A stretch of DNA of 39,509 bases from an uncultured Lachnoclostridium sp. (GTDB lineage Bacteria; Bacillota; Clostridia; Lachnospirales; Lachnospiraceae), in the NCBI GenBank assembly GCA_947178155.1, contig CAMWXG010000006.1, positions 1 through 39,509 on the forward strand, in the 5' to 3' direction. This document shows positions 4,928 to 21,633 of the stretch, piece by piece (the stretch's first letter is position 1; each line of letters begins with the position of its first letter). Under the pieces are notes generated by a model. It did no database searches. It was not told the origin of the DNA and saw nothing but the letters and a program-made list of their open reading frames with translations. Position numbers and translations under genes: made by a program.

Positions 4928-6655
4928 ATGAGAAAAAGCATAGGCGCAAAGGTGTTGGGGGTACTTTCAATATTGTGTGCAATTTTTGTATTTGCAATAA
5001 TATCAAATATAATAGCACTTGGTATAATCAATGATTATAATGATATGGCTCTTAATGTCTATATGCAGGCTGCCAAGACTATGATAGGTCTTGAGAAGTC
5101 ATGCGAGCAGGTACAGCTGTATTCAGAACTTTGTTATTATAACCAAACTAAAGATAATACTGAGAATATTGAAAATCTTGATGCTGCATTGACTAAACTT
5201 TTAAATGATACAAAGACATTGTCAGAAATTTGTAGTAAAACAGGTAATGATGAAGTTATAGCAGCATATGATTCATATGTTGTTCAGCTTAATGGTTATA
5301 TTTCGACAGGTATGTCAATTAAAAATGCTATTTCAGAGGGAGATTATGAAACACTGGGTTTGAAAATGGGCTCATTCAGACATGGCATTTATTCATTAAG
5401 AGATGCTGGAGATGAGTATGATAAAGTTATAAGTGATCAGATAGTTGTACTGGAAAAGCATAGTTCAAATAGGATACAAGGTACAAATTTATTCAATTAT
5501 ACTCTTATCATAGTATATATTATAATAATATTGACTGCGCTTATTGTAGTGAGAAAGACAATCACCGGACCGGCAAAAGCTTCAGGCAGGCTGTTAAGAG
5601 ATATCGTTGATAAAATTGACAGAGAAGAGGGCGATCTTACAGAGCGTATTCCTGTTAAGTCAAAAGATGAGATAGGTCAGATGGCAGGGGGAATTAACAG
5701 CTTTATGGAAAGACTACAGGCAGTTATGAGAAAGCTTAAAGATGAGTCTGAGAAGATGATGATTTCAGCAGATGCAGTTACAAGAGAAGTTAATGAGTCA
5801 AATGAGCATGCTGGAAGTGTGTCGGCTGCTATGGAGGAAATGTCAGCCAGTATGGAGGAGATTTCAGCAACACTGGGGCAAATTGCAGAGGGAAGCAATA
5901 ATGTTATGGGTGAAGTGGAAGCTGCTAATACTCGTGTGCGTGATGGAGTAGGAATAGTAAAAGAAATTAAATCTCAAGCAGAACAGATATATAAAGAAAC
6001 TATTGAGGGTAAGGAAGATACTAGCCGTATAGTAGTTGGGATAAGAGATGAGTTGAGGAAAGCGCTGCAGGAAAGCCGAAGTGTAGATAAAATCAATGAA
6101 CTTATTGACGAGATATTAAATATTACAAGTCAGACGAATCTTTTGTCATTAAATGCCTCTATTGAAGCCGCCAGAGCAGGTGAGGCGGGCAAGGGATTTG
6201 CTGTAGTTGCTGATGAGATACGTGTGCTTGCAGACAGCAGTGCACAGACAGCAGGCAATATTCAAAATATCAGCAATCTTGTTATAGCTGCTGTAGATAA
6301 ACTGTCTAAAAATGCAGAGGATATGCTTAGGTTTATAGATGAAAAGGTTATGAGTGATTATGATGGTTTTGTAAAAGTAGTTGAGCAGTATGAGAAAAGT
6401 GCAGATAATGTCAACAGTATTTTTACAGAAGTTGCAGATAGTACAGATGATATTAATAATACTATAAAATTGATGAATACAAGTATTAATGATATTGCCA
6501 TAGCAGTAGATGACAGTGCAAGTGCAGTTACAAGTGTAGCAGAAAATGCAGTTGGTCTTGTAGATGCTATTGCACAGATACGTCAGGAAACGGAGAATAA
6601 TCAGGAAATTTCAACAGAACTTAGCAATGAAGTAAGTCGTTTCAAAAATGTCTAG
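4928..6655 (+). CDS. Methyl-accepting chemotaxis protein
   Basis: Two TMs, HAMP-like region, signalling tip [43 protein letters not shown] aaggagg. Confidence 0.95.
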
Positions 6656-6816
6656 TACAGCGTTGCATTAATCTCGAAGTAATAGGGGCCTGAATTTTGT
6701 GTCAGGACAAGGCGGAGGAATGAGGCAATGCGGTGGCATTGTTGACTGACGACAACACGGTACTGGAGCAAAAGACAGGCACATATTACTCGATTATTAA
6801 TGCAACACTGTACTAG
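6652..6816 (+). repeat. Structured dispersed element, copy 1: long terminal inverted repeats, conserved internal loop, central hairpin
   Basis: CTAGTACAGcGTTGCATTAAT...ATTAATGCAACACTGTACTAG arms; core CAAGGCGGAGGAATGAG-(hairpin)-TGACTGACGACAACAC shared with 21473-21628 (reverse complement). Confidence 0.85.
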
Positions 6817-6825
6817 GAGGTAGTT

Positions 6826-8403
6826 ATGACCAGATTTCATATTAGGGTAAAATCAATAAGGACGAAATTGATTCTTATCATGATTGCTATGCTTGGCATG
6901 ACAATTTTTATAATATGGATGATGAATATAATTTTGCTTCCAAGATATTATCAATATAAGAAAGTATCTATGCTCGAAGAGTGTTATGATAAAGCTAATA
7001 CAATAGTAAATAAGGATGATAATTATAAACAGGGTATTAGTGGTCTTTCAGATGAAAGCAAACTTTCATTTGAAATATTATCTGCAAACAATGCTTCTAA
7101 TATATATGTATTTAGTTTGACAGAGGTTTTTGGCAATATATTTTATACATATGATTATCCAATATCTGATTCTATTACAGATTTTCAGAAGCTGCGCATA
7201 CGGGAAAAAGCTAAAGAATATTTGTATATTTTACAATTAGAGTCTATTGGTGAAGAACGGGAAGGGAAAAAACAGGAATATATAGCAGATAATGATAATT
7301 ATATGGTCAGTAAGGTTATGGATGACCATATTGGTTCTTATTATATTGAGCTTTTTGGAAAGTTGGATTCAGGCTCTTTTGTATATGCGAATACAAATTA
7401 CCAGGGTATGACAGAAAATATAAATACATTTAACAGTTTTATATTTTATGTGGGACTTTGTGTAATAATTTTGGTTGCGGGCCTTATGGTGTTTATAAGC
7501 AACAGTTTTACCAAACCTTTACTTCAGCTTACAGATATAGCAAAGCGCATGTCAGAGCTTGATTTTGATGTAAGATATCCTGTAACTACACATGATGAAA
7601 TAGGGGTTCTTGGCAGCAGTATTAATACTCTTTTAGAAACACTTGAAAAGACTATATCAGAGTTAAAAACTGCTAATAATGAGTTGCAGAAGGATATTGA
7701 AAATAAAATACAAATAGATGAGATGAGAAAGGAATTTCTCTCCAATGTGTCACATGAATTAAAGACGCCGATTGCGCTTATACAGGGATATGCAGAGGGA
7801 CTTTATGACAATATTAATGATGACAGCGAGGACAGGGAATTTTATTGCGAAGTTATTATAGATGAAGCTAACAAGATGAATAAAATGGTTAAAAAACTTC
7901 TTGCGCTTAATCAAATTGAATTTGGCAAAAATCAGGTAACATTTGAAAGGTTTGATATAATTCAGGTTATAAAGTCGGTTATACAGTCAGCAGTACTCCT
8001 TGCTGAACAGAAGGGTGCAAATATATATATGGCTGATTATGATGCTATATATGTATGGGCAGATGAGTACATGGTTGAAGAAGTGGTGACTAATTATATA
8101 AGCAATGCCATTAATCATGTTGCAGGAGAAAAACGGATTGAGGTAAGTATAGAAAATAGACAGGAAGTTGTTCATATCAGTGTGTTTAATACCGGAAATC
8201 CTATACCAGAGAGTGAGCTTGACAAAATCTGGATAAAGTTTTATAAAGTGGATAAAGCAAGGACAAGGGAATATGGAGGGAACGGCATTGGGCTTTCCAT
8301 AGTAAAGGCTGTAATGGATTCAATGAATAGGAAATGTGGTGTTATTAACCATAATAACGGGGTTGAGTTTTGGTTTGAGTTAGACAGACAATGTTCTCAT
8401 TGA
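6826..8403 (+). CDS. HAMP-domain sensor histidine kinase
   Basis: Two TMs, HAMP, H-box FLSNVSHELKTPIALIQGYAEG, N box, GGNGIGLSIVKAVMD; RBS aggagg. Confidence 0.95.
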   Translation: MTRFHIRVKSIRTKLILIMIAMLGMTIFIIWMMNIILLPRYYQYKKVSMLEECYDKANTIVNKDDNYKQGISGLSDESKLSFEILSANNASNIYVFSLTEVFGNIFYTYDYPISDSITDFQKLRIREKAKEYLYILQLESIGEEREGKKQEYIADNDNYMVSKVMDDHIGSYYIELFGKLDSGSFVYANTNYQGMTENINTFNSFIFYVGLCVIILVAGLMVFISNSFTKPLLQLTDIAKRMSELDFDVRYPVTTHDEIGVLGSSINTLLETLEKTISELKTANNELQKDIENKIQIDEMRKEFLSNVSHELKTPIALIQGYAEGLYDNINDDSEDREFYCEVIIDEANKMNKMVKKLLALNQIEFGKNQVTFERFDIIQVIKSVIQSAVLLAEQKGANIYMADYDAIYVWADEYMVEEVVTNYISNAINHVAGEKRIEVSIENRQEVVHISVFNTGNPIPESELDKIWIKFYKVDKARTREYGGNGIGLSIVKAVMDSMNRKCGVINHNNGVEFWFELDRQCSH

Positions 8404-21403: not shown

Positions 21404-21445
21404 GAGGCTGTTGCACTATAATATCAGTGCAGCAGCCTCTTAATT
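21404..21445 (+). terminator. rpmB intrinsic terminator
   Basis: GAGGCTGTTGCACT-ataatatc-AGTGCAGCAGCCTC then TTAATTT. Confidence 0.8.
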
Positions 21446-21472
21446 TAATAGGAAATTGCTCAAAATGTAGTA

Positions 21473-21628
21473 AGGAATTGTTGAGAAATAAATCTTCACA
21501 TTTTGTTTGCCCAAATTTCCATCTGCTGTGTTGTTGTCAGTCGTCGTAGCCCACTACGACTCCTTCCTCTGCCTTGCAGATGAAAATTTATTCTGTGCAA
21601 AATGCAAAGTTATTTCTTAACAGTTCCT
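21473..21628 (-). repeat. Structured dispersed element, copy 2 (core on - strand)
   Basis: Arms AGGAAyTGTTrAGAAATAA...TTATTTCTTAACAGTTCCT; core (rc) CAAGGCAGAGGAAGGAG-TCGTAG-TGGG-CTACGA-CGACTGACAACAACAC matches 6708-6758. Confidence 0.85.
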
Positions 21629-21633
21629 AAAAA

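Follow-up and report, generated by a model that had tools for sequence, protein, structure and literature searches.

Small palindromic mobile elements with unrelated ends hold a common, strand-constrained inner module, probably acting at the RNA level, in Clostridia and Streptomyces

MITEs are usually viewed as transposon debris whose inside is irrelevant. Elements of about the size considered here, with stable hairpins, are common among them (review PMC10969869), and for bcr1, BOX and SPRITE action as RNA has been proposed (PMC2267715, PMC6542083, PMC10969869). Elements of the IS630 family, which are of the DDE type, are transposed as double-stranded DNA by a cut-and-paste route (PMC2170065), and the title of a 1991 paper by Tenzen and Ohtsubo, in the reference list of that article, gives their target preference as TA within CTAG.

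We analysed a stretch of 39,509 nucleotides (the window) of contig CAMWXG010000006.1 from an uncultured Lachnoclostridium sp. (assembly GCA_947178155.1). A sequence-only reading had noted here two oppositely oriented copies of one mobile, multi-copy element with a constant core and with arms that pair within each copy, seemingly unrelated between the copies. The sequence of copy 2 is as it was described there, and the exact core pattern matches twice in the window vs not once in 100 shuffles. What the two copies have in common, however, is an inner module; their ends are of different types, CTAG and IS630-like in copy 1 and TWA followed by GGAACTG in copy 2, rather than drifting arms of one element. 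The parts are as follows.

6652..6816, plus strand: copy 1, module inside a CTAG-bounded IS630-type MITE, flanked by genes for a chemoreceptor and a histidine kinase
6708..6760, plus strand: module core of copy 1, CAAGGC ... AACACGG (pattern match, comparison)
21471..21473, no strand: TAA, left target duplication of copy 2 (sequence; TWA duplications also at several other copies of this end type)
21474..21506, minus strand: copy 2 outer arm, 3', terminal inverted repeat (RNA folding)
21507..21525, minus strand: copy 2 inner stem and outer loop, 3' strand, CAGATGGAAATTT-GGGCAA (folding, comparison of cores)
21526..21532, minus strand: copy 2 conserved loop strand AACACAG, consensus AACRYNG (core comparison)
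21533..21543, minus strand: copy 2 tandem G·A helix, 3' strand CGACTGACAAC (core comparison, pair covariation)
21544..21559, minus strand: copy 2 apical hairpin TCGTAG-TGGG-CTACGA (covarying)
21560..21570, minus strand: copy 2 tandem G·A helix, 5' strand AGAGGAAGGAG (core comparison, pair covariation)
21571..21576, minus strand: copy 2 conserved loop strand CAAGGC (columns near-invariant in 39 clustered representatives)
21577..21596, minus strand: copy 2 outer loop and inner stem, 5' strand, ACAG-AATAAATTTTCATCTG (folding, comparison of cores)
21597..21627, minus strand: copy 2 outer arm, 5', terminal inverted repeat GGAACTGTTAAGAAATAAC... (pairs with 21474-21506)
21628..21630, no strand: TAA, right target duplication of copy 2 (sequence)

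Copy 2 is a near-perfect palindrome of 154 bp (window 21474-21627, minus strand, boundaries read from the sequence) with a 3-bp target duplication, TAA, on both sides, and its end motif occurs 18 times in the genome when up to 3 mismatches are allowed. RNA folding of 21473-21628 (minus strand) gives -58.3 kcal/mol (z = -9.4). Its duplication of three bases and its other ends place copy 2 outside IS630, for which a TA duplication and IS630-like ends are expected. The element is located some 200 bp upstream of an Asp23/FakA-type gene pair, and about 30 bp away from it (window 21405-21440) the inverted repeat GAGGCTG...CAGCCTC, with a T-rich stretch behind it, resembles a terminator.

Copy 1, about 160 bp long, is bounded by CTAG at 6652-6655 and at 6813-6816, and its RNA folding yields -71.9 kcal/mol (z = -8.2). 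The autonomous IS630 elements of two relatives (G030, G007) end in CTAGTRYA..., like the copy 1 type, and by this end motif and the CTAG target copy 1 is classed as an IS630-type MITE. It sits exactly at a CTAG that provides the chemoreceptor gene with its stop codon and the histidine kinase gene with the first bases of its Shine-Dalgarno sequence (window 6650-6656 and 6813-6826); removal of the element and one CTAG gives 'gtcTAGGAGGTAGTTATG', where the upstream gene's stop codon overlaps the downstream ribosome-binding site, this being a reconstruction rather than an observed empty site. Neighbouring copies of the CTAG type use one CTAG in common; two such tandem elements lie on the same contig piece as an FMN riboswitch (L007:535-660, minus strand). 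Among the autonomous IS630 elements found, none carried the module.

The two copies are not isolated. Genome-wide, the strict core pattern has no hits apart from the two copies in the window, whereas a covariance model trained on nine copies detects 13 in this draft genome, among which there are four or more sets of arms, so that the earlier expectation of many copies holds for the structure and not for the strict pattern. With the same model, 31 of the 145 genomes in a search of relatives have matches at E <= 0.001, with a maximum of 31 copies in one genome, and at E <= 1e-5 there are matches in 20 of 392 genomes sampled from the class and in 19 of 399 sampled from the phylum (about 5%), the own genome being counted in all three samples. 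In G007, most of the 14 copies inspected are near-identical and full-length, at different sites, with a mean identity of 95%, and one is truncated. Beyond the phylum, BLAST with the core alone matches 18 Streptomyces plasmid records, and seven plasmid loci score 53-67 bits with the covariance model. At these loci (L348:1442-1607 and L349-L354), the ends are several and different and the insides similar. One of them, L348, is located upstream of an IS110 gene, at a distance of about 500 bp; we rejected an association with IS110 because the other six Streptomyces loci, one of them with an unannotated record, show no such gene next to the module. A search of phages for the module gave no match.

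Mobility is supported by the target duplications or CTAG sites, by near-identical copies at many sites and by nesting. The elements are short and palindromic, have terminal inverted repeats and target duplications (TAA/TAA in copy 2, CTAG/CTAG in copy 1) and exist in many near-identical copies at different sites, and there is no ORF of 80 aa in either copy; ends common with an autonomous element were seen for the CTAG type, in the IS630 elements of relatives, and none were found for the copy 2 type. We are confident that these are MITEs, transposase-less DNA transposons moved in trans, with a shared module. The search for a transposase with ends of the copy 2 type, which took in IS5-type (PF01609) candidates as their origin, found none, and the ORFs adjoining single TWA ends include no obvious transposase as judged by eye.

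Several unrelated end types hold one and the same inner module. We find the module in at least five of them, read by eye since the automatic boundary script overshoots at many copies: CTAGTRYA...; the copy 2 type, TWA followed by GGAACTGTTAAGAAATAA, with many shorter derivatives that lack the module; TATTACTCCGGCGGTTAAAT; TTAGGATTCGTCAAAC; and further types in distant genomes. In Streptomyces alone, at least four end types, for example CTAGGGTCTTTC, CTAGGGGGTGTCGTTTGGATC and CCTAGGGCCTGTCCGGCGGATC, enclose similar insides. In nearly all of the other copies inspected the arms pair with each other, and the outer arms of the two window copies are indeed unrelated, but the separation is not complete: AATAAATTTTCATCTG/CAGATGGAAATTT, which forms the inner arm in copy 2, is also present in elements of relatives that end in CTAG and thus are intermediates.

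Several variants of these elements were observed. The shorter TWA-ended derivatives include palindromes of about 52-60 bp with copy 2 ends and no module (L121, L255, L257, L259, L262, L269), some of which retain inner scraps, as after palindrome deletion; because of this resemblance, they are no proof that the module is dispensable. Elements of 156 bp with copy 2 ends and a similar hairpin (L250:1501-1657, L252:1501-1657, L272:1501-1657) have a plain Watson-Crick helix in place of the loop and the G·A helix. Composite elements of about 300 bp in G055 and G030, with the ends TAGCGTCAGTGTAC, contain two opposite modules as two branches in one outer palindrome (L191:1893-2089, L192:1980-2176, L176:2013-2209, also L177 and L178), so that a transcript of either strand would include one module in the sense orientation. 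Finally, a divergent class (L164:2968-3052; L167:1257-1341 and L152:821-905, both on the minus strand) has a long A/T-rich helix, AAATTTTT/AAAAAATTT, and retains CAAGGC and AACGT/AACAC.

The module, of about 75-105 nt, has two covarying parts, a stem and a hairpin; between them lie the internal loop YAAGGY/AACRYNG and then the tandem G·A helix. The sequence-only reading had taken the core to be open; it turns out to be mostly helix with tandem G·A steps, plus the small conserved internal loop. In the comparison of 111 distinct cores, clustered at a threshold of 85% to 39 representatives, the order is inner stem, YAAGGY, a strand of an 11-position helix, hairpin, the other helix strand and AACRYNG. 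Helix positions 5-6 and 9-10 are G·A or A·G in 33, 35, 32 and 28 of the 39 representatives, and positions 2-3 in 26 and 24, with mostly Watson-Crick pairs in the remainder; the exact counts depend on the 85% clustering and on an anchoring that slightly rewards G·A at those positions. Positions 1, 4, 7 and 8 covary. The loop contains a possible two-pair GC/GC mini-helix (88.9% paired), and about 12-16 bp further out there is a second loop, ACGCAG/GGCAAG, which resembles the first in reversed orientation, this being a resemblance only. A kink-turn was considered and rejected on inspection, the order of bulge and G·A step being unsuitable.

In the alignment of 36 representatives, two-sided changes occur in 26 of the 27 tested pairs, 86.5% of the cells are paired (64.2% when shuffled, 31-51% in slid controls), and the covariation score is 0.640 vs 0.252 for shuffled and at most 0.153 for slid controls; the hairpin (helix 4) has 91.5% of its cells paired and two-sided changes in eight of eight pairs. 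These values bear on the view that the elements are ordinary MITEs, with an inner part that is a relic of an ancestral element and a structure that is a by-product of palindromy. That such elements commonly have stable hairpins, and that the copies within one genome are near-identical, would fit this view. Covariation far above the slid controls and the strand asymmetry described below already disfavour it, the unpaired bases are near-invariant, and the core is kept across phyla while the ends differ, so that we consider it very improbable.

If a palindrome were conserved as double-stranded DNA, G·T and A·C mismatches should be about equally frequent since each is the complement of the other. 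Among the clustered representatives, G·T exceeds A·C by 41 to 4 in the inner stem, by 25 to 6 in the hairpin and by 68 to 36 in the outer arms, which marks the module strand as the one under structural constraint. Thus, the module is under strand-specific constraint on its secondary structure, with stems that covary, internal-loop bases that are conserved and two tandem G·A steps that are nearly invariant. RNA fits this asymmetry best and single-stranded DNA second; compensatory changes along with G·U tolerance on one strand are what is seen in the module, as in structured RNA. In the gene contexts of the copies (33 sense, 41 antisense, 20 convergent, 14 divergent, with genes approximated by ORFs), there is no orientation bias. 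A cis-acting mRNA leader or riboswitch with a fixed gene orientation was rejected on these counts, such a device being expected to show bias.

The most serious competitor of the RNA reading is that the module works as single-stranded DNA, folded in a cruciform or on the lagging strand, to which transposases or a host protein of replication or repair would bind while the element moves. The lack of orientation bias relative to genes agrees with it, as does the invariably central position of the module in an extrudable palindrome; furthermore, strand asymmetry alone cannot separate RNA from single-stranded DNA, which also favours G·T over A·C to some degree, and this counts against a reading at the RNA level. 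However, a G·T preference as strong as the one seen here is more typical of RNA, the IS630-family elements move as double-stranded DNA (PMC2170065), and the occurrence of the same module with different end types means that no single transposase accounts for it. On these grounds, single-stranded DNA appears rather unlikely, and the module probably functions at the RNA level; the joint proposition, a MITE with a shared RNA-level module, is on the whole also probable, if a shade less firmly held.

Given an RNA, a small self-cleaving ribozyme that trims transcripts through the element comes to mind. Known small ribozymes are of similar size, enclose conserved loop strands between variable stems and occur in mobile elements, and the module, with its two conserved loop strands, resembles them in each of these respects. 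Yet there is no match to the ribozymes of Rfam, the cutting of polycistronic mRNA should result in an orientation bias of the kind that was not found, and no cleavage site is indicated; we hold this reading, too, to be quite improbable. More generally, Rfam 15 has no match in the window at the gathering score and nothing relevant on four other loci at E <= 5 or on a Streptomyces locus at E <= 1. A search confined to the open-access literature yielded comparable mobile structured repeats (bcr1, BOX, SPRITE) and no account of this module.

Probably, the module acts as RNA within transcripts that run through the element. The combination of unrelated ends with the same inside, across the phylum and beyond, implies that the inside probably does not serve one particular transposase, and its presence with different ends in both Clostridia and Streptomyces suggests, as the most likely partner, some component of the host that is broadly conserved, perhaps RNA polymerase or its elongation and termination factors, the ribosome or an RNase, or else an activity intrinsic to the RNA. 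The benefit would most likely go to the transposon: intergenic insertions might be tolerated because the effect of the long hairpin on transcription or mRNA processing is softened. This role is a doubtful proposal, and its last step is a guess. As a tentative formulation, to which we would give a little less than even weight, the module might represent an undescribed, cross-phylum class of structured RNA that travels as cargo on unrelated transposase-less transposons via exchange of terminal repeats and that engages a host machine of wide conservation or possesses its own activity. Contrary to the usual view of MITEs, here the inside is conserved and the ends are exchangeable. If the module is a functional RNA, it would be a non-coding element, absent from Rfam, that travels by transposon and is present in many genomes; the survival of small elements between genes would become directly testable, and the covariance model can be used to find more copies and the partner.

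Among the known systems, bcr1 of the Bacillus cereus group and BOX and SPRITE of Streptococcus pneumoniae are likewise small repeats that are mobile, lie between genes and have a conserved secondary structure. BOX is modular and streptococcal. The bcr1 repeat differs in being confined to one group and linked to a TTTAT motif (PMC6542083). With MITEs that generate 3-bp TWA duplications, IS5-like by analogy, copy 2 shares the 3-bp TAA duplication and ends that start with GG, although, no transposase with its ends having been found, its kinship is one of analogy only. The IS1031 group of IS5 makes TNA duplications. Finally, the MITEs of the IS630/Tc1-mariner type are like the copy 1 type in the CTAG target with its central TA and in the IS630 end motif, but they differ from the elements described here, whose inside, a conserved structured module, is found also with other ends, including those of copy 2.
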